From assembly GCA_032622095.1 (NCBI GenBank), contig CP136066.1, forward strand, positions 189,834,816-189,898,815: a DNA stretch of 64,000 bases, given 5' to 3'. Shown here piece by piece: positions 49,276 to 62,520 of the stretch. Position 1 is the stretch's first letter. The number at the start of each line of letters is the position of its first letter. The notes under the pieces were generated by a model. That model did not search any database, was not told the DNA's origin, and saw only the letters and a program-made list of their open reading frames with translations. Origin of the DNA: Siphonodentalium dalli. Lineage: Eukaryota; Mollusca; Scaphopoda; Gadilida; Siphonodentaliidae. Made by a program: the position numbers and the translations under genes.

Positions 49276-50010
49276 TCAAAGTAAAATTGTCAAATAAAAA
49301 CAAATGATATAACTGCGCAAATTTGCACAGCCATATATATGCATATATTGTATGTTCACATATTGTGCAACTATTAGTCGATCTCGATCGGCCTCTATAT
49401 CAGTTTGCCGGTTGAAGGTATTACCGCATGACTCATTGCCTGAGCACCTACATAACTCATTGCACTTTGATCTCAAAGAACAAGAACATATCAGATCTTT
49501 CAAAATCTCCGAAGCAGTTGGATCTTCAAACAATACAGGAGTTAAGCCGCCATCACCATTCTGCCACCCGTGGTTCAATGGCGATCCATTTGGGGTTTCA
49601 AGAACATTGGTCCATATTTTTATCTGCCAACTTGAACGCGTTGTATGCTGTCTGAAGCTGCTCTCACATGGAGGCAATTTGGCAATAGATTTATCACATT
49701 TATTAGACAGTCTTAGTCGCAAATCATTTAAATTAGTGTGACTGGTCATCTCCTTTCCACTTGGATCATATAGTGCTGCCACCAAGGACCTGGCCGAGCT
49801 AACTAAATCGTCCTCGTTTTTGGTTCGATCCCCTAAAAACATTAAGTCTATAAATTTAGATGGACCGTGTTTCATCAGGGTGCTTAAAACAGACTTTTTC
49901 CCGATTCCGAACAATGATGATACAGAATCACACCCTGTTATAGCATGGGCTGCTGGTAAGATAGAACACATATCGTGGCCTATATTGTCACATATGTCAT
50001 GAACTGGAAT
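49276..50010 (-). pseudogene. FEN/XPG-like nuclease pseudogene, C-terminal part
   Basis: Read from 50010 downward it gives IPVHDICDNIGHDMCSILPA, then HAITGCDSVSSLFGIGKK, a late metal-binding Asp followed by a helix-hairpin-helix like that of FEN1/XPG nucleases. The end is cysteine-rich (CSCSLRSKC, LCRCSG). Known: this superfamily cuts DNA flaps and structured DNA. The N-terminal part lies at 59595-62520; the two are separated by a 9.6-kb transposon that entered exactly between FIP and VHD codons. This half has no internal stop. The related proteins I can call to mind are uncharacterised, repeat-associated ones in invertebrates, so it may itself come from a mobile element. Confidence 0.75.
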
Positions 50011-50047
50011 CACAGTGGTGCAAGATCGGTGTAGCATATGGTGTAGA
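50011..50047 (+). repeat. Left terminal inverted repeat of the 9.6-kb transposon
   Basis: 37 bp beginning CACAGTGGTGCAAGATCGG. CGGTGTAG/GGTGTAG copies follow at 50027, 50040, 50051, 50447, 50513 and 50537. Confidence 0.95.
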
Positions 50048-50285
50048 CATCGGTGTAGAATTATCAAAATGGCGGACACCGGTAGTTCGTTTTGGATATG
50101 CTCCTTGTAATTCATGATGTTTTGAAGATATTTGTACTGTGAGGAAAACCGTTATACACAGATTCACTTGGAATTATATCGGTTGTTATAGGAATACCAT
50201 ATTCTTTGTGGATTTAATTGGTATTATTGTCAAAAACACGTTTTAAACCAACATACTGACGATTGTCAACAAATTGGCAAGAAAC

Positions 50286-50348
50286 ATGTGGGTTTTTGCA
50301 CTATTTTTGGCCTTATCGGTACTGCCTTCATCGTTAAACTCTGCCCAG
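50286..50348 (+). CDS. Possible signal-peptide exon
   Basis: ATG at 50286 opens 21 codons reading MWVFALFLALSVLPSSLNSA plus Q, an excellent signal-peptide shape, followed by a donor-like CAG|GTATTG at 50349. A possible partner is the open stretch at 51272-51545, preceded (before a MITE insertion) by an acceptor TTCTACAG at 50794-50801 and by codons reading FKCYSC. The phases do not join cleanly, so this is a candidate only. Confidence 0.35.
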
Positions 50349-50812
50349 GTATTGTAATTATAATGTTAGATCGAATCGAATTTGATTCGTTGTGTGGCGT
50401 TTTTTTAAATTGATTTAATTGACGATAATTTAAACATCATAAAATACGGTGTAGAAATGTTATGAACATGAACCTGGTTGCTTGGATACCAAAAAATAGC
50501 AAGATTACATGGCGGTGTAGAGGAAATTATTTATAGCGGTGTAGATTGGGCACAGATAGACAATTCAAAATTATTGAATTAACAGCAGATTTCTACGAGC
50601 ATAAGGCATTTGTTCATGCAGACATGTTTGGTAACATATAATACCTAATTAATGTCTAAATATAATACGTATAATAGATATTGGAAATTAGATTTAAATA
50701 TAAACATGACTAATTAACTATAAGTGGGTGTTTGGGTGGTCTGTATATACGTAGCACACGTTCTATTCAATTGACCTTCCAATACATGTTTACTTCTACA
50801 GGAATGCAATGT

Positions 50813-51271
50813 TTAAAGACACGGTTGGCCTTGGCGGTGGGTATCCTGTGAAAATATTTCCACCCGACAAAAACCGCCACAAACAGAAAGAACATCAAAA
50901 TGTAGATAGACTTTGTCCGTATACAAATAAGAAATATCGCATAAACAGTATGTTATGGTCATATGTTTGACCATTGTTATGTAAACAAAAGCTTAACAAG
51001 TTACTTTTCTGGTGTTTGTTTATATTATGATGGTAAACATAAAGAGCGTTATTTGTTGGTCAATTCCTGATATGGAACTAATAAAGAGCGTTTATGCCAT
51101 TTGTGTGTGATTAGCCAGTAGCATTCTGCTGTCTTCTGTAACACAATTCAGGCTCTTGCTTAGGTAAAATATAGTAGGTCTTTATGATAACATGCTGTTT
51201 ACGCGATGGTCATGGTATATATGAACGAAATTTTGAATATTTTCGACAACAAAGGCCTCACGTGCCTTTAA
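50813..51271. mobile_element. TTAA-bounded MITE, family F, copy 2, inside the transposon
   Basis: Left end TTAAAGACACGGTTGGCC, right end CCTCACGTGCCTTTAA. It splits what looks like an exon: joining the flanks at a single TTAA opens a frame that runs on to 51545. Confidence 0.85.
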
Positions 51272-51545
51272 GTGCTACAGTTGTGCGAAAGTTCACGAAG
51301 ACATGCAGACAGCAGTAGACCATGGCATCAAAGAGCACGAACATGATATTCTCAAAATCAGAACATTGGAGACGGATTCGACCACCGGTAAGATGGGATA
51401 TCGGACGCAGAACTTCAATCTTATACCCAGATTGATATCCGAGACAAATCAAGTTGTGGTTGTCGAAAGTCCGATAGGATCAGAATACTCTATTCGAATC
51501 GAACAGATGTGCTATAGTGGAATGTCGGGGTTAATATTTGCCTGA
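51272..51545 (+). other. Open stretch of unknown function inside the transposon
   Basis: About 90 codons including KVHEDMQTAVDHGIKEHEHD and ending LIFA, then TGA. No domain recognised. It may be an upstream exon of the YqaJ gene or a small separate gene. Confidence 0.35.
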
Positions 51546-51899
51546 AAGTCTGTGTAGAGTAGGTTAATAGAACCAATTACCAACTAATCAATAAGTATGT
51601 GGGGCCATTGCTTTACTGGTTCAGAAGTATAGCGAATCATATGTTTGGAAACAGATCAATATCACAAGGAAGAAGTCCTACTTGCCTGGAAGAATATCGT
51701 ATCAGAGACCAGTCATGTGACTTGGGGAGAAAGTTGCAATAAAATACTAGGTTTGCTTTAGATCGTGGCTTTTCGGTTGTAATTCTCTAAGTGACCGATT
51801 GGCCCCGCGACAGACTTCAGGCGAATTCTCAAACTGCTAGCTTTGTAAAAGTTGTTGTGGTAATCATATATTCATGATGTTTGCTGTTATAATAAAAGA

Positions 51900-54800
51900 T
51901 TGTGTATCTACAAAACTGTGTCTGGACCTGAGTTACCCAACGTGGAGAGACGATCTACGGCCGATTATAGGACACAGATGCCAATTGTCGAGGAACAGTA
52001 CTTTGGCATGAGTGATTTGACATTGTGCGATGAGAACGAAATGATGAGTCCTATACCCAAGAGGCTTAGATCGTCAACGCCGCTGAAGACACCAACCGAT
52101 AATCGCGTGACATCATTGGGTCTTATTGTGACGCCAAAACAAGCACATGGTAATCTCAGCCACGAGGAAGCCGATATACTGGATGACATAACTGCCCAGC
52201 TCCCCAACGTGATGAAAGAACTCAACAAGGTCGGACAATTAGAAAATTGGGCCGCGTTTAACACCTTAGTGGGCAGTGGTAAATTTCCGATGCAAAACAT
52301 CGCTTTCCATTTGTTTATGGATGTATGCCGTTTCCTATCATCAGAAAATACTGTACGGATGCGATACAATGCAGTTGTAAAGAAATTTTGGAGGATAGGT
52401 TATCGCCTGTTTCACGGCAAATGTTTAAGATTTATGGGTGGACCCAAATATCTAGGACACAATACCGCCGACGGTGAAGACAAATCTCAAATATGTCCTC
52501 TCGATACACGGATCAATATAACTGACATGTTATATATCGTTGATGATATTGGACAATTCATAGCTGCTACACATGGGGTCAGTCAATTGTTTGTAAAGGG
52601 TAACCGGGTCAGCCTTTCTACACAGTCAAACTACGTTCATATTGGCAACTCTCCCAACAAAGAAGACGAAATAAATCCACGATTCGTCTAGCAGGGCAGC
52701 GATGCATGGCATAAAATTCGAAACACGGCATTGATTACTGGTAGTATATTTTTCAAGGGCTTGGGTTTGGGTACACTCAAGCAGCAGATAAGTCACTTTG
52801 ATACGGTTGTATTAGGAAAGGAAAAGGAGACATTTACATCGGAAGTGCAGGAACGTCTAGATCATGGCTCACTCAACGAGATCAACGCTGTCGGAACTCT
52901 TGTTGGAAAAGTACTGCCAGTTTTCGAACCGTATTTGAAGTACACAGAGGAAGGTTGCTACAGTATTCAAATGGGTAGCGTGCCCGTTGTGATCAGCCCA
53001 GATGGGAGTTTTCGGACTGATGTTGACAGCAACGCCTCGTTCGGAGTGGAATGCAAATGCCCCTTTCCTGGGAAAGCTTGAGCTACACCAGTGTGCTACA
53101 AAATGCCACCATATTACGTCCCACAAGTCATGGCCGAGATGTACTCTCTAAGCACATCCAAACTGTATTTTATTTGCTATTCCACCGAGTCATCAACAGT
53201 CTTCAGAGTGAGCTTCGATGAAGAGCTATGGCGAGCGATGAGGCAGATGACGGACATGTTATATGGCGACTCGAAAAATCCCGGAACAGAAGGAACTAAA
53301 TAAGATGGTTAACTGTTTTGTGGACAAGAATGTTGAATATATTGCTGAATTCCCATCACTGTGTTCTATCACATGTGATCCCGAGAATAGCAGTGAGCGG
53401 TTTTGTTTCCATGGAAGCGCAGCCACTTCTGATATGAACATGAGTGACACGATCAACTCAATTCGAGGTGTCCTTCGGAATTTACAGTTGACGACCGAGA
53501 AAGCGTATCGATTCACGAGGACAAGAGCTACTGAATTTCTTGGTTTTATGATCTCAGATGTTGACCGGCAACCTAATGAAGGTGACAACTTTGTTGTTCC
53601 CATTGCGTATGGTATGAATGGTTATAGCCTTCCGAACGATACTCTACGAGCTATGATCGTCTCCGTTCTGAAGGAATGCTGGACGAGGGGTCTTTACACA
53701 CCGATTGTGTCTTTTTACGGACAATGGCACAAACTGTCAGTACGTGATGCGAAAGAGATACCCATGACACTTCTACAACTACAAAAAGACGTCTATTCTG
53801 AAGTTTAAAAAATGTCGAAGAGTACCTTGGTGTACACAATGACAACGTTGAATTCGCCTTCTAGTAAAGACGTGACAGTCGAGGTGTGTTTTGACGAAAA
53901 CTGGAATGTCCACAAGCGCATCACTCTTGGCAGCAATGATGACACGTCTATAATTATTATTACGAAACGAGTTCAGGCTCTGCTAAAAAAAAGGAGACAA
54001 TCGAGAAAGCAGCAAAGGATGACGAGCTTTAAAAGGAGACGGATACCATCCTAAGCGCCTTGCCCCCAACTGTTGTAGATGAGATGAGCCATGAACTGGT
54101 AGAAACAATTCGAAGTGCAGCATGCGCAGCCCCATCGTCTGTGTCAGGTCAGTGGTTTGTTCTTACTGTTTGGATATTCATGATATAGGTTGGTTGCATG
54201 TACAACTTTGATTTCGGTTATACTTACAGAGTGCTTGTCGATTGGATTATTTATGGAGTTGGAAGACCACGTTAACGCCCCGTGTTCATGTAGGCCCCGG
54301 CATTTTACTAAAGCGGCGGGGATACTAATATGGCTGCCATAATCCTACAATGACTTTCAACCTGCCATTCAAGCCTTAATTATATTTTATACTAAGTGTA
54401 ACATGTGACTTATTTCAGACATAATATGATAACAGTGTAAACAATATTTTATTAAAATATGTACATGTCACATGTATAAGTACAATTCATCGCATACCTA
54501 ATTGCAATATATTTTTGCTCGACACCATTACAGGTGCTGGGGAAGAAGACGTTTCTCAGAATGTTGATTTTCCTTCTACATCACATCATGCTGACAACGG
54601 TCTCGATGACAACGAGAAGATAGAAAATGACGTTCTATTTACGGACAATGTCGTCACCCAACAGCAAGACCTGTCTACACCAGCCACAACACCGGTGTGC
54701 ATCGACAAAAACCTTATTGCTATGAACATGTTTGAAGTATTTTGTGCGTCTGAAGACAGAACTATGTCTTTTGAAGACTTCATGACTAAATTCCAAACGG

Positions 54801-57518
54801 CAGCAGTGATCAACAGCAATTTCAAACGACCAGAGCTTGTCGCACTCATGGCACCTTCTTTGTGTATTTTACGATATCATGGGTACAGAATATACATGTC
54901 AACGTCTAAATATATGCTAGCAAACATCGTATGTGAGTTATTTGGGGATGGATCTATATCAAAGAGGAGGGAAGCAAACCACAGACAGCTTTCATCACCA
55001 CGTTCCCTAAAAACATTAGCCAAGAATGCAGTCGAAAAACTATCGAAAGACACCCTGTGTTGTGTTTATGCTGCACACATTTTCCCCGACAGGTTGGAAA
55101 AGTGGTACTCAGATTCTGCTTTCGGGACCAGTGTCAATATTAAAGATGTGGAAAGTTTCCCCGAGCCACCCGTTTGGTTTTCAAAACCAGAATACTACGA
55201 ACCGCTTTCGAACTACATTTTCGTGATATTGGACGCCTATCACCAGCTTTGTGGTCTACGAAGACTCGTCTGTGGTCCAGGGATTCCCAAAGCTGGTATC
55301 GAAAGCAAACAATTCCACCTGGTAGCTGAGCAAAACATTTCAAATAAATGCGGTCTAACGTTAGCACATGCTAGAGATATGATAGACAAACAGAGTGTTG
55401 CGTATGCGGTCCTTACCTTTTCCGAAAATGTTGAAGATGCATTACGTCAAAACGGTGCTGAATCAGAGGCTGACTTGTGTAGGTTGGTTCGGAACTGGTA
55501 CCTATCAGAGGATGAGCCAGGAATATCGGCCCGAGAAAGATGTATGTATAAGCTACAATTCAGGCAGTGGCTTTTAAAGGACGTGAGATTCTGTGAGTTC
55601 CCCCAATATGGATCGTATGTCAAAGACATACCTATTGTTCTTTACGAGGGACTACTAGTTGGGATCGAGAGAAAACTTCAACTTTATTCTTTCGTCAAAA
55701 ACGTAACATATAACGTGAGGTCAATAGGGAGTCTGGACATTGAGAACTTCTTGTCCAGCTTTCAAGATATCGACCCGAGGGGAACGGGAGTCATTCGACC
55801 CGACGATATATCGTCTGCTCTCAGCATAGCTACTGAACTACTTTCAGCCAAGATGGACTCTGGCAGGTCAGTCCTATTCCATTTGGGGTTTTAACTTTCT
55901 AACAGACTATAACCACAGGTAACTATTAAAATAAGTATATGGACCATGACGAACAAACAGAGCAACTTGAGATGTGTCCGACATGGCAAATTGTTTTAAT
56001 AACAATGATACTTTTTTGCATATGGTTTCTATCGGCTATATACACAGAGCGACATTAACAGTCTTGCAAGTGTGTGGACGTTTAATTCATATGGCACGAC
56101 GTCGACCACGTTATTATAGCCTGAAAGGCCGCAGGGCATATCCAATAAAACGTCCACACACGTGTTGTTCTGTGTTTATTACACACCTAATGTACAACCG
56201 AATGTTTATTAAACTAAATAAGCTATTCCGCGACAGTTATGTACAGATGACAGTAAATTGGACATAGAAGGAACGTTTGAACCATAGTCGGGTTCTAGTA
56301 TAAACGTTGTCAAACCGGACGTCATTTGTGTTGCTTTTTCTGTATACCACTCATATTGTATTCACATTATAATTTATATCACGACATACTGCCTCTTTTC
56401 TTTGTTTATTAGTAATAGGTTTGTAATAAATCATAACATATTCGATTCCGTGTCATGTCGTTTGTTACTATTTATTTTCAGGGGGTTCTACATGCACACT
56501 GCTAAAAAAAAAAAAATGTACCCATGCAACACGCATTCAACTGGTGATCATTGGTTAGACTCCAACGTAGAAGACGAGGAATTGAATAATCCCGACGACA
56601 TCACAGTTGTGAAAGATCTATCGTGCATCATTCTGAAGTAGGCCTATATATGTATAACACGGTTGATGCGTATTAAATGCATCTACAGTACATGCATCTA
56701 CAGTACCACATACATGTTATAAAATGTAAGCATTTTTTGCGGCATATGGAAATGTGATCGCCTGTGACAGTGTAAACAGACATAACGCGGGTCTAATTTC
56801 ATATGTCCCATGTGATATGTTGTCTGTCTACACCGTCGCATTTTCCATTTTCGCAAAAATGTGTCGATATATAATAACATTTGTCGAAATGTATGTGTGT
56901 ATGTGGTAGTGTAGATATCAAATTACCAAAGAACACAGTGAACGAAATTACAAATAATTTTATTCATTATATTATCGAAAACGACACATGTGTGATCGTT
57001 TTATTGGATATGACACTCGTTCGATTACTTCATTGTAGCCTGCAACCCCTCGGACTATAATGACGTGATCGACGTCGTGCCATGTCCGCTAAAACGTCCA
57101 CATGACATCCGTGTCTCGTTCTGTGTATATTACTTGGCGAAAATTAATACAGCTATGTCCAGGTTACTAACAAATTCACGTGTGATATATACACACTCTT
57201 TGTACTAAATTTATAACATATTATGAGTCACATTACTGCGTATATAGCCCAAGTTTCCAAAGATAGTTATTGTCTTGGGGAAACCCCTCAAAATATGTGG
57301 GAGTATAGGGGAACACTACTATATCTATTTTCTTCAGGGACCACCAGTTCGATCGTCAGGATCGAAATCTACGTAAACGGAAGAGGAAGTGTGGGCGGGT
57401 TTCCCAGCCAGAGGAGCCTGCAAGAAATCCATTTCCGGTACGGGAGTATCATCATGTTCAGGAATCAAAGATATTTGCCGATGTCAGACGGGGATTGAAC
57501 TTCAAGGATATTGAATAA
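51900..57518 (+). pseudogene. Transposon gene: YqaJ-type nuclease plus large unnamed domain, 4 exons, N-terminal half broken
   Basis: Exons read 51900-54147, 54534-55866, 56482-56637 and 57338-57518, with consistent phases at the three introns. The first exon shows the YqaJ pattern: W-x5-R then ITGS, HGSLNE, SPDG and ECKCPF, a PD-(D/E)xK nuclease core as in phage exonucleases. It is interrupted by stops at 52689 (TAG), 53079 (TGA), 53806 and 54031 (TAA) and by shifts in A-runs near 53272 and 53985. Exons 2-4 are fully open (about 560 codons) with VILDAYHQLC, RNWYLSEDEPGI and GSLDIENFLSSF blocks and a basic tail (RKRKRK). I recall similar uncharacterised proteins in other marine invertebrates but cannot name the domain. 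The conserved Asp and Glu blocks make it a candidate transposase (inference). Confidence 0.75.
56078..57092. repeat. Inverted repeat pair in introns of the YqaJ gene
   Basis: GCACGACGTCGACCACGTTA at about 56094 is inverted near 57052-57085 (ATAATGACGTGATCGACGTC). Both sites also share AAACGTCCACA and TTCTGTGT(T/A)TATTAC in direct orientation. Probably remnants of a small repeat family. Confidence 0.5.
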
Positions 57519-57792
57519 AATAACTATAACTATTCGGTGATGTGTTTTGTGATGTATTTTCCATTTGAGTTGACGACAACAACAACAATTAATGAGGCGT
57601 TCTTCATGCATCATTTCGTATCATTATAGCCATAATCCTTATAACAATAAGGCAGCTAGTTAAAATGGTTATGTTTCAAGTTATCCAATCTACTAGGGTG
57701 AGATAATACAATCAATTTCGAATATGGAATAACATTTTATTGAAAATAACAACCATATATGTCTATATGGAACATGCATAAAAATGTAATTG

Positions 57793-58251
57793 TTAAAGGT
57801 ACTCAATCCGATCAGAGGGTCCTATATTACTATTTATTTTGCTTTGGGGGTAAAAAATTATTGATTCGAGTCGAGGAACCTACCAATCAACGCTCATACA
57901 GGGTGATCAGATATCGATATTTGAAGTTTTGTTATTTCTAATTTTTTTGTCCCAGAACACGCCGTCAAAAGGATGTTCACGGTCAAAATTGCGTTATTAT
58001 TACCACTTGATTTTAGAGTTATCCATCCTCGTCTGTTTGAATACTGTTTCTGATGTACACATCTCGAGAAAATTACGAAGTTAGGGGCAAGTATTAGTAC
58101 AAATCTTGAGAAAATTACAAATTTCAAAAACCAATATCTAATAACTCTGAGCTTTGTTTGATGGGTTCCTCGACTCGAATCAAATATATTTTACCCCCAA
58201 AGCCAAAGAAATAGTAATATAGGACCCTCTGATCGATTTGAGTACATTTAA
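57793..58251. mobile_element. TTAA-bounded MITE, family C, copy 2, inside the transposon
   Basis: Ends TTAAAGGTACTCAATCCGAT and ATCGATTTGAGTACATTTAA, with inverted similarity continuing for about 95 bp into each side (GGGTCCTATATTACTATTT, GGTTCCTCGACTCGAATC). Confidence 0.9.
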
Positions 58252-58465
58252 ACATAAGCAATAAAAATAGAAATAAAAAATCCGCTGCTTTATAATTATA
58301 ATGGTGATATAAAAAATACTGAATATAGTCATCCTGACTGTTCACAAATGAATTAACCACCTGTAAATTATAGTGGTCATAATACTGCTTATAAAATAGT
58401 CATCCTGACTGTTCACAGTTATGCCATCTGCACACGTTGTTCACATATATGAAGTACACTACCTT

Positions 58466-58929
58466 CTACCTTTTACCATGACAATTGTCCATATGTGCCT
58501 TAAGGGCGGCACGCCACGTGTATATCTTGCCACACCCGCACCTAAATATGCGATCGTGCAGGTGCACCGCCCGCCGGTGATCATTCAGTGTATCCTTCCT
58601 TGTAAACGTCGACTGGCAGTCGTCGCATGTGAATGTATTATGTTGGTGAACACCTTGTACGTGTCTCTTTATGGCGTATTTCTAGTGAATGTCTGTGGGC
58701 ATTTCTCACACTTGAAAGGGGTGCCAGTGTGTTTTACCATGTGAGCCACAAGCTGGTGTTTCTCTCGGAAAGAAGCCTTACAGTCGAACTCACGACAATG
58801 GTGTTTCCTCTCACCCGTGTGAATAGTCTCGTGCTTAATTAAATTAAACTTATTCTGGAAATGTTTTCCACAATAGGAACACAGGCTGTTGTATGTTGGT
58901 TCTTCGACTTCAATGAACGATTCTTCCAT
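58466..58929 (-). pseudogene. C2H2 zinc-finger gene of the transposon, one-base frameshift
   Basis: From ATG 58929 the frame gives CSYCGKHFQNKFNLIKHETIH, the linker TGERKHHC, a second finger (HCREFDC...HMVKH) and the start of a third (CEKCPQTFTR). Near 58678-58682 one base is missing from an A-run. The adjoining frame then finishes finger three (KRHVQGVH), a fourth (CDDCQSTFTR...HRRAVH) and a fifth (CGCGKIY...HMDNCH) and stops at 58466-58468. About 154 codons in all. Known: such fingers bind DNA. Inference: it may bind the GGTGTAG subterminal repeats of its own element. It is convergent with the YqaJ gene. Confidence 0.85.
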
Positions 58930-59557
58930 TGCTTGTATGCTAAAATTAGAAATGAATTAGGTTCAATAAATTTGGGGATTTAAGTGATAATTAATATATA
59001 ACGTAGGCTGTAAATTGGGATGGGTGCGTTATGCTCTGCTTCAGTTAACTGAAACTACAAAGAGTGCAGCGTATCGATTAATCTACACCGTCTTTTAAAA
59101 AGACATCTACACCGTCATAATTATTAAATTTATTGTCCAAAAAGTCATCATCTACACCTTCATATTATCATTTAAAATAAAAAATAGCATTTCAATCAAA
59201 ATATCGAAAAACATACGAGTTTTTGGGCTAAAAGATTACACGATATATTCCTCATATAAATTCACATCGGTGTGAGAAGAAATCCGTGTGATTACTAAGC
59301 TAATTTCGTGACAATTGAAGAAAACGAAGTCGTTCTACCGCCTCGCTGAACAACAACAGAAAACTGACATGTTTGATCGCGCTAATACAGTATTACATTT
59401 TACATTTATGAACGGCAATTGTGTCCTATGTGTTCTTTGACATATTTTAGTTCAAGTATAACTAACCTCCGTGCTGAAAAAGATTGTTAGCAATAGAAAC
59501 ATTCAAAATGTAAAACAGCGTACGTTTGATGACCTTGTCCGGCAGCCATATTGGATT

Positions 59558-59594
59558 TCTACACCATATGCTACACCGATCTTGCACCACCGTG
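59558..59594 (-). repeat. Right terminal inverted repeat of the 9.6-kb transposon
   Basis: 37 bp, reverse complement begins CACGGTGGTGCAAGATCGG. CTACACCG/CTACACC copies precede it at 59083, 59107 and 59152. Confidence 0.95.
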
Positions 59595-60573
59595 GGAATG
59601 AACCTGCGTTTGTCAGAGATAGTTGTAATCGTAACAGTTTCCACCCACAACTCTGGAGAATTGATGACAACGCGAAGAGCCTGTCCTGACACTTCACAGG
59701 ACTGTGTGACATGCTAGAAAATGCGAGTGTTCGCTTCATCGTGATATGCTGAACTCGCCATGTCAGAAATACCTTCACACGTTTGACAATCAGCGCAGCT
59801 TCAAATCCCCAAGTCGGTATTAATGTGCGAGACGGATGGTTCTTCAATTGATCGGTGGCATGGTCCACAACATATTTACATAAATATTGACAGAGTGATA
59901 CTTTGTTATGTGAAACGCTGAGGAATTTTTTCCACGGAGGAACTGGTCGACCAGAGACAACGTGGTAGACCTATTCTGATGGCATAGACCCACCGCTGCG
60001 ACGGACACGTTCTGCACTCTTTCACAGAGTCTGGATTGTCGTATCTATCAAACACTTCTACCATGGTATCAGCCGTGACAAAGCAATCAATAATCGGCGT
60101 CAAGGTTTGATAATGATCTATATTTATCTCCTGGGATCCTCTGAATGTTTGCCATGGCATCCCGTATATACACCGTGCTCGTAGAATCGCGGGTATGGAG
60201 AGAGTTAACACACTGGGATCCTCTGAATGTTTGCCATGGCATCCCGTATATACACCGTGCTCGTAGAATCGCGGGTATGGAGAGAGTTAACACACTGGGA
60301 TCCTCTGAATGTTTGCCATGGCATCCCGTATATACACCGTGCTCGTAGAATCGCGGGTATGGAGAGAGTTAACACACTGGGATCCTCTGAATGTTTGCCA
60401 TGGCATCCCGTATATACACCGTGCTCGTGTACTGTGAAGTATTCGCGAATATAACAATGCCAGTGTTCTGGAAGTCCAAGTTTTCTTTTAACCCTTTGAG
60501 TGCCAGGGGCCGATCTCATCGGCCCAAAACCTACAAAATAAGTCTTAAAGAATATAAGAATAAATTATTAAAA

Positions 60574-60614
<41 letters not shown>

Positions 60615-62520
60615 TTAGGCCAATGCATTCTCTTATATATGCGAGGCGACCTATGGTCGACTCGCATATATAAGAGAATGCATTGGCACATGGTATCAGC
60701 CGTGACAAAGCAATCAATAATCGGCGTCAAGGTTTGATAATGATCTGTATGTATCTTCTGGGATCCTCTGAATGTTTGCCATGGCATCCCGTATATACAC
60801 CGTGCTCGTAGAATCGCGGGTAGGGAGAGAGGTAACACACTGGGATCCTCTGAATGTTTGCCATGGCATCCCGTATATACACCGTGCTCGTATAATCGCG
60901 GGTAGGGAGAGAGGTAACACACTGGGATCCTCTGAATGTTTGCCATGGCATCCCGTATATACACCGTCCTCGTAGAATCGCGGGTAGGGAGAGAGGTAAC
61001 ACACTGGGATCCTCTGAATGTTTGCCATGGCATCCCGTATATACACCGTGCTCGTATAATCGCGGGTAGGGAGAGGGGTAACACACTGGGATCCTCTGAA
61101 TGTTTGCCATGGCATCCCGTATATACACCGTGCTCGTAGAATCGCGGGTATGGAGAGAGGTAACACACTGGGATCCTCTGAATGTTTGCCATGGCATCCC
61201 GTATATACACCGTGCTCGTAGAATCGCGGGTATGGAGAGAGGTAACACACTGGGATCCTCTGAATGTTTGCCATGGCATCCCGTATATACACCGTGCTCG
61301 TAGAATCGCGGGTATGGAGAGAGGTAACACACTGGGATCCTCTGAATGTTTGCCATGGCATCCCGTATATACACCGTGCTCGTAGAATCGCGGGTATGGA
61401 GAGAGGTAACACACTGGGATCCTCTGAATGTTTGCCATGGCATCCCGTATATACACCGTGCTCGTAGAATCGCGGGTATGGAGAGAGGTAACACACTGGG
61501 ATCCTCTGAATGTTTGCCATGGCATCCCGTATATACACCGTGCTCGTAGAATCGCGGGTATGGAGAGAGGTAACACACTGGGATCCTCTGAATGTTTGCC
61601 ATGGCATCCCGTATATACACTGTGCTCGTGTACTGTGAAGTATTCGTGAATATAACAATGCCAGTGTTCTGGTAGTCCAAGTTTTCTTTTAACCCTTTGA
61701 GTGCCAGGGGCCGATCTCATCGGCCCTAAACCTACAAAATAAGTCTTAAAGAATATAAGAATAAATTATTAAAATTGTAAAAAAAAAAATTGTTAGACCA
61801 ATGCATTCTCTTATATATGCGAGGCGACCTATGGTCGACTCGCATATATAAGAGAATGCATTGGCATTGGCACATGGTATCAGCCGTGACAACGCAATTA
61901 ATAATCGGCGTCAATGTGTAATAATGATCTGTATTTATCTCCTGGGATCCTCTGAATGTTTGCCATGGCATCCCGTATATACACCGTGCTCGTAGAATCG
62001 CGGGTAGGGAGAGAGGTAACACACTCAACCAAGATCACTTTTATTGGTTTTCCGCATTGATCCATCTGCATGAAAGATAGAAGCCGGCACTGGTCCAACA
62101 GGATGGGACATGACCGTTGAGAGGGATAAGTCACTACGTGACCTCGTTAATGACAAAGCTCTCCGGAATATTATTTCTGGATTCATTGCAGCTTTGACAG
62201 TTTTGTCGCTGCCCAGTTGCAACTTTGACTTCTTCATCATGTCAGTAAAAGTATTCAACCCTGATTTTTCAATTGGAGCATAGAGAGTATTCTGGTCATT
62301 GTCCTGTTTAGTCAGTGAGCGTTTTATGAATTTGGTCAATTGTTTCTCTCCTGTTTACATGCAGAAAGGAGAGAACACTGTACTTCGACGGACTCTTGAA
62401 ATCCAGATCAAATGTTCACAAGACTTTCAGCCTCAGGATGAGCTGATAGTTCAAATGGATTCACAATGGTATTCTTCACGTGGCTCATTTCGGCCAATTT
62501 GGCCGTTTTCTTCATGGCTG
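59595..62520 (-). pseudogene. FEN/XPG-like nuclease pseudogene, N-terminal and middle part
   Basis: Read downward from about 62507: MKKTAKLAEMSHVKNTIVNP, then after a TGA and frame changes a block ending GSMRKTNKSDLG (62339-62025), then VYIRDAMANIQRI (inside the 82-bp repeat), VEVFDRYDNPDSVKE (about 60060), RPVPPWKKFLSVS (59940), HDEANTRIF followed by a TAG (59730) and ELWVET...KRRFIP up to the transposon. The order of acidic blocks (RDAMA, FDRYD, HDEANTR, later GCDSVS) mirrors the metal-binding residues of FEN1/XPG nucleases. The segment usually holding the DTD pair seems deleted between VVINSP and ELWVET. Several shifts and stops plus the repeat expansion show it is dead. Confidence 0.75.
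60065..62025. repeat. Macro-tandem array carrying an 82-bp coding minisatellite
   Basis: The segment starting TGGTATCAGCCGTGAC recurs at 60065, 60691 and 61875. Units 1 and 2 each contain an 82-bp array (about 3.6 copies at 60134-60427; about 10.8 at 60759-61640), a TTAACCCTTTGAGTGCC segment with GGGCCGATCTCATCGGCCC, an A-run (about 34 in unit 1, 9 in unit 2) and one hairpin module. Unit 3 has a single 82-bp copy and then rejoins nuclease coding sequence. The 82-bp unit (GATCCTCTGAATGTTTGCCA...) is the pseudogene's own VYIRDAMANIQRIP codons. Confidence 0.93.

Follow-up and report, generated by a model that had tools for sequence, protein, structure and literature searches.

A decayed DNA transposon of Siphonodentalium dalli with a predicted P element-type transposase that encloses a YqaJ/lambda-exonuclease-type domain

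A 64,000-nt stretch of contig CP136066.1 of the scaphopod Siphonodentalium dalli (the window, to whose positions all coordinates refer) contains a 9.6-kb transposon (50011-59594) lying between two copies of GGAAT. Very probably this is a decayed cut-and-paste DNA transposon whose transposase is predicted to be a DDE enzyme of the P element type holding a YqaJ/lambda-exonuclease-type domain inside its RNase H fold. It was compared with the whole genome (2.2 Gb in 9 contigs) and with related proteins; L numbers denote genome loci or copies, P numbers family proteins and C numbers contigs, as labelled in the analysis.

The insertion is precise and is accompanied by a 5-bp duplication. The GGAAT copies (50006-50010 and 59595-59599) border 41-bp terminal inverted repeats, 95% complementary to each other, which begin with CACAGTG on the left (50011-50051, plus strand) and CACGGTG on the right (59554-59594, minus strand), as determined by inverted-repeat comparison and, for the left end, by genome matches to the end pattern. 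The sequence CACAGTG is the consensus heptamer of the recombination signal sequence (RSS). An earlier note on this DNA had described these starts and the GGAAT duplication correctly, although it gave the repeats a length of 37 bp. It had also claimed that removing the element restores a reading frame, and the flanks joined with one duplication copy indeed give a 282-aa minus-strand frame (...KRRFIP/VHDICD...), its upstream part at 59600-59713 and its downstream part at 49276-50005, as supported by comparison with paralogues at the protein and DNA levels. Two paralogues, C3:162502006-162502638 (89% identity, query residues 3-213) and C6:165918239-165918682 (88% identity, residues 3-148), cross the junction after residue 22 uninterrupted and have a single ATTCC there in their DNA. 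These paralogous empty sites agree with the frame junction and thus establish the boundaries of the element independently of the reading-frame argument.

The earlier note had allowed for a RAG/Transib-like element with a lost or unrecognised transposase. Relatives join frames of the window that the note had left unconnected into one transposase. The C-terminal frame at 54533-55894 retrieved 17 relatives, with P0001, P0004 and P0005 extending upstream into other frames of the window, and profile searches listed 28 and then 47, partly overlapping, including long proteins from Mercenaria, Ruditapes, Mytilus and Solemya. From the N- to the C-terminus, the long relatives display a C-x2-C...H...H finger (in most of them), helices with FWRIGYRLFHGKxLRFMSG, the block CVDGKKIN...GDIDLWG, a helical stretch, the YqaJ domain, LGFMISDLDR...PIAYGLKGYSL, SFDGQW, a variable acidic linker, LDAYHQ, DLIDKQS, SLDIENFF and a basic tail, with the nuclease positioned between the first and the second conserved Asp. 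As read from their sequences, a single polypeptide carries both the nuclease and the DDE residues in these relatives. The key residues of Mercenaria P0045 are D307, D604 (nuclease), D846, D1227 (DxxH) and E1397, and this protein is collinear with the window over residues 3-66, 83-242, 439-692, 709-937, 982-1439 and 1477-1537, the block 243-438 with D307 being missing there.

Conservation was counted over 86 aligned family proteins, using at each site only those with a residue there. The first Asp is kept in 51/52, the exception being a fragment that starts downstream; the nuclease D, E and K are kept in 46/46 each, the second Asp in 55/57, the D and H of DxxH in 44/44 and the Glu in 39/40. Only 49/58 proteins have Asp at the SDxDR position considered early on, which makes a catalytic role for that residue unlikely. 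A whole-genome search with the C-terminal part listed 71 matches, three of which besides the window are ~83-95% identical (two on C7 and one on C9); the remaining listed matches belong to lineages with 28-53% identity, some with open frames of 843-1,173 codons. Four relatives (P0026, P0033, P0034 and P0037) are filed under bacterial metagenome-assembled genomes (Candidatus Thiodiazotropha, Sedimenticola) and are probably host DNA in symbiont bins.

With good confidence, the enzyme can be regarded as a P-fold transposase harbouring an internal nuclease. The predicted model contains a P-type RNase H catalytic fold with a helical insertion domain, and structural comparison places it nearer to P (30.7) than to Transib (13.0) or RAG1 (11.6), both of which are among its structural matches; the nuclease is predicted to be placed between the first-Asp strand and strands that follow later in that sheet. 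The nuclease domain has a PD-(D/E)xK fold with D, E and K and is closest to LHK-Exo and lambda exonuclease, and the nuclease fragment of the window matched Pfam PF09588 with an E value of 0.0095, below the cut-off. PF21787 (P-type RNase H) touched five of 12 long relatives, the best full-length score being 20.8 bits against a cut-off of 24.6. No THAP domain appeared in the Pfam scans of these 12 proteins, which have the C-x2-C...H...H finger instead, although this negative says little for P0043 and P0048, whose N-terminus is cut or different. Of the profile searches and structure prediction advocated in the earlier note, the former gave no Pfam match to a RAG1/Transib-type transposase among the scanned proteins and the latter a P-like fold.

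In the window the transposase gene runs on the plus strand and is heavily damaged. Its inferred start codon and first codons (ATG TTT AA.., 50809-50816, by comparison with L017) are split by a nested 450-bp insertion with TTTAA duplication flanks (50817-51266), which L017 and other sister copies lack. The N-terminal zinc-finger-like part (FKCYSCAKVHEDMQTAVDHGIKEH; 51267-51509, located by tblastn with P0025/P0045) is followed by a second insertion with ACAGATG duplication flanks (51510-51980), not present in L017 and similar sister copies, and by the region upstream of the first catalytic Asp (51981-52517, by comparison with sister copies and P0045). At 52517/52518, ~540 bp encoding the VDGKKIN..GDIDLWG block with the first Asp are missing, which are kept in L017, L018, L019, L026, L028 and L029. 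The nuclease domain (52518-53267, assigned from the PF09588 fragment match and the relatives) has two stops, TAG at 52689-52691 and TGA at 53079-53081, and a frameshift lies at ~53250-53295. Comparison with relatives delimits the RNase H strands through the second catalytic Asp (53251-53808), where this residue has been replaced by Tyr (SFYGQW), whereas the ~95% identical sister L067 reads SFDGQW. Downstream lie a predicted GT...AG intron (54148-54533, from splice signals and alignment to relatives), the C-terminal core with LDAYH (DxxH) and SLDIENF (catalytic Glu) (54534-55866, 56% identity to P0001) and a C-terminal exon (57324-57515, 59% to residues 1477-1537 of P0045). Because of the split start codon, the two insertions, the ~540-bp loss, the stops, the frameshift and the Asp-to-Tyr change, the window copy is, to judge from its sequence, dead.

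The ends recur across the genome. A 31-bp end pattern, CACNGTGGTGCAAGATCGGTGTAGCATATGG, was found with up to three mismatches at 81 places (42/39 by strand), a number that includes duplicates of single insertions as well as the two ends in the window, and its reversed control gave 0 genome matches; scored genome searches with the left end and with the right end returned at least 40 matches each. An exact CACAGTG start was present at 61/81 places, a share biased upward because the pattern itself demands CACNGTG. Among nine insertions with both ends read, the duplication was perfect over 5 bp at six (GGAAT, ACTGT, ATTAC, TTATT, TATAC and AGTTA) and matched at 4/5 positions at one (GCAAT/ACAAT); two more places sharing the AGTTA-site flanks (TAACT/TAACT; AATTA/AGTTA) were left out, as they look like segmental duplicates. 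The search for further ends and duplications suggested in the earlier note bore out a perfect 5-bp duplication in this genome at six of nine insertions.

Subterminal GGTGTAG repeats accompany the ends. The window copy has six in a single orientation on the left (50028-50544, plus strand) and five on the right, all pointing inward (59083-59577, minus strand). Within 600 bp of the left/right end, the four complete copies contain 6/5 (window), 2/5 (L031), 4/4 (L033) and 2/1 (L035) repeats, all inward, with none pointing outward over this distance, and mid-element extras number three in the window copy and five in L035. The sequence GGTGTAGA occurs 11 times in the element and 0 times in the remaining 54.4 kb of the window. 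The GGTGTAG repeats probably serve as binding sites of the transposase.

Several observations weigh against the interpretation given here. The P-type fold is a prediction, and the closeness of the three acidic residues is presumed. When the first-Asp block was joined to the later block, two of five constructs matched Pfam, and the same two did so without the block over essentially the same profile region, so that the assignment of the first Asp draws on conservation and on the model. Searching the sequences of solved structures returned no transposase. Regarding the insertions, one of the nine has a 6-bp duplication, AAAGAT (read by eye from the flanks, the 5-bp test being negative), and another has no matching duplication, its ends being 26.5 kb apart and perhaps not those of one element. 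None of the copies seen combines both ends with an undamaged gene; the two ends occur together with transposase coding sequence only in the window copy and in the small remnant L033. No transposase match was obtained for L031 and L035, whose end pairs are complete, 0 of the 71 listed C-terminal-core matches fall between the 20-kb (C2) and 24-kb (C1) end pairs, and no inverted repeats appeared in the 6 kb flanking each side of L065, a 31%-identical relative in this genome.

Part of this evidence would suit a reading in which the inverted-repeat element is non-autonomous and by chance transports a YqaJ-DDE gene of host or foreign origin, namely the end-bearing L031 and L035 without the gene and L065, with its related long frame, without detectable ends. 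This reading is nonetheless highly unlikely, as the left end adjoins the same gene start in L017-L019 and the window copy, L033 (~72% identical at its left end and with its own ACTGT duplication) retains a piece of the gene, and the predicted fold of the protein is that of a transposase. Less plausible still is descent from the Transib/RAG line, even though it would account for the frequent CACAGTG starts (subject to the bias mentioned) and for the presence of RAG1 and Transib among the structural matches, and 5-bp duplications are typical of RAG, RAG-like and Transib elements according to one source (PMC7204232). The family has in common with that line CAC-starting, RSS-heptamer-like ends, 5-bp duplications and a DDE enzyme with an insertion domain, whereas it differs in a predicted fold clearly nearer to P, in the YqaJ nuclease and in that no RAG2-like gene was seen; the rest of the repeat is also unlike the protostome consensus given in that source (PMC7204232). 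The enzyme is likely not of the RAG kind, and the interpretation in the earlier note, which offered an undescribed superfamily or a RAG/Transib-like element, is partly supported.

An unlikely but weightier possibility is a divergent family of P, Kolobok or ISL2EU already catalogued in Repbase or Dfam, given that both the fold and the DxxH signature characterise the P-hAT-MuDR-Kolobok group. The P superfamily (Drosophila P, THAP9, Galileo) would share the predicted P-type catalytic fold, but its duplications are of 8 bp (PMC7776569), while the window family combines 5-bp duplications with CACAGTG ends, a nuclease after the predicted first-Asp strand, a C2H2-like finger instead of THAP and sequence similarity under the Pfam cut-off. 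Because of the duplication length, the THAP result and the profile scores, it is not counted as a member of P. The KolobokE/Kolobok lineages likewise combine a DDE transposase bearing a C/DxxH signature with a lambda-exonuclease-type nuclease, but they make TTAA duplications, in contrast to the varied 5-bp ones here, and KolobokE has the nuclease downstream of the transposase domain rather than inside it (PMC9587614). ISL2EU (PHIS superfamily) also encodes a YqaJ nuclease, but it is described with 2-bp AT duplications, a separate second open reading frame and a THAP-bearing DDE transposase (PMC4482050); neither AT duplications nor a separate frame for the nuclease were found in the window family. 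No such element, nor any paper joining "P element transposase" with "YqaJ", was found in the PMC literature searched, a scope that leaves out Repbase, Dfam, most subscription journals and preprints. Altogether, the element is a DDE cut-and-paste transposon that probably forms its own superfamily next to P, outside Transib/RAG.

How the nuclease contributes can be framed as a hypothesis. The transposase would attach as a dimer to the inverted repeats and to the GGTGTAG repeats that point inward. Cutting and joining of the transferred (3') strand, with a stagger of 5 bp, would fall to its RNase H site, and cleavage or trimming of the other (5') strand where the element ends would fall to its nuclease domain. 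Such a division of labour would resemble that of Tn7 TnsB and TnsA, in which a PD-(D/E)xK nuclease works with an RNase H DDE transposase; the likeness is one of presumed function, and Tn7 uses two bacterial proteins whereas here there is one chain with one domain within the other. Action on the non-transferred strand is proposed tentatively, and is preferred because the insertion unites the two activities in one catalytic module. For the same element and enzyme it is nearly as likely, if still doubtful, that the nuclease acts after excision, resecting the 5' ends left at the broken donor site, whose repair by homologous recombination would restore the transposon there and thereby raise its copy number. 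LHK-Exo and lambda exonuclease, the closest structures, are processive 5'-3' exonucleases, the D/E/K triad is invariant among the relatives, and P element excision is repaired from a template; however, a resecting enzyme has no need to be within the catalytic fold.

The interrupted gene matched no Pfam family in the Pfam scan. Its family has at least 151 matches in the genome, and several of these, located on different chromosomes, tie in score and have 1,467-aa frames, which makes it probable that the gene is itself transposon-borne; 57 bases common to the C3 and C6 paralogues are absent from the window copy. The cargo described in the earlier note, a YqaJ nuclease gene and a zinc-finger gene, is present, the nuclease being a domain of the transposase rather than separate cargo. 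The C2H2 zinc-finger gene (58466-58929, minus strand, frameshifted; identified by Pfam and sequence comparison) recurs in the right end of L034 (94% DNA identity across 1 kb), whereas L031, L033 and L035 yielded no match to it; the gene probably travels as a passenger with a single subfamily. Pieces related to the nested 450-bp repeat occur in L025 (95% identical) and L020 (83%), and hence it is probably a separate dispersed family. At 57793-58251, inverted arms of 104 nt, 88% complementary with a 251-nt gap and with related pieces in L022, L027 and L036, probably represent another nested element or foldback. Just beyond the right end of the transposon, 82-bp tandem arrays (60131-60428 and 60758-61629) comprise 3.6 and 10.6 copies with 98-100% matches.

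Some copies appear to have spread by other routes. L017-L020 (C3 52.55-52.61 Mb) are four copies with the common flank AATCACAAAATGACCGTATA, and the L018-L020 loci hold other zinc-finger genes; based on this, they look like a single insertion multiplied along with a gene cluster. L021-L024 (C8 63157954, 63164641, 63171328 and others) are without the first 12 end bases and have a common flank, TGTGATCAAGGCATCGCG..., on different chromosomes, the three copies on C8 being spaced 6,687 bp apart; the flank and the regular steps are the reasons why this end-truncated element seems to be carried by another repeat.

Taken in full, the hypothesis would be that of a new superfamily of animal DNA transposons in which a P-fold transposase has swallowed a nuclease and cuts both strands with one chain, as a single-chain analogue of TnsA and TnsB, its RSS-like ends and 5-bp duplications having arisen independently of RAG/Transib; in this complete form it is offered as a possibility that falls short of even odds. 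If true, an RSS-like heptamer and a 5-bp stagger would not be exclusive to RAG/Transib descent, which bears on arguments about how V(D)J recombination originated that are drawn from ends and duplications. The enzyme would be, within the literature searched, the first P-type transposase with a nuclease in its catalytic domain, and a natural two-nuclease enzyme in which the logic of strand cleavage is testable. In one clam genome study, YqaJ domains are counted as viral (PMC7826175), and the bivalve relatives found here are annotated as "uncharacterized", "YqaJ viral recombinase domain-containing" or "EF-hand domain-containing"; for these proteins, the finding would provide a likely function.

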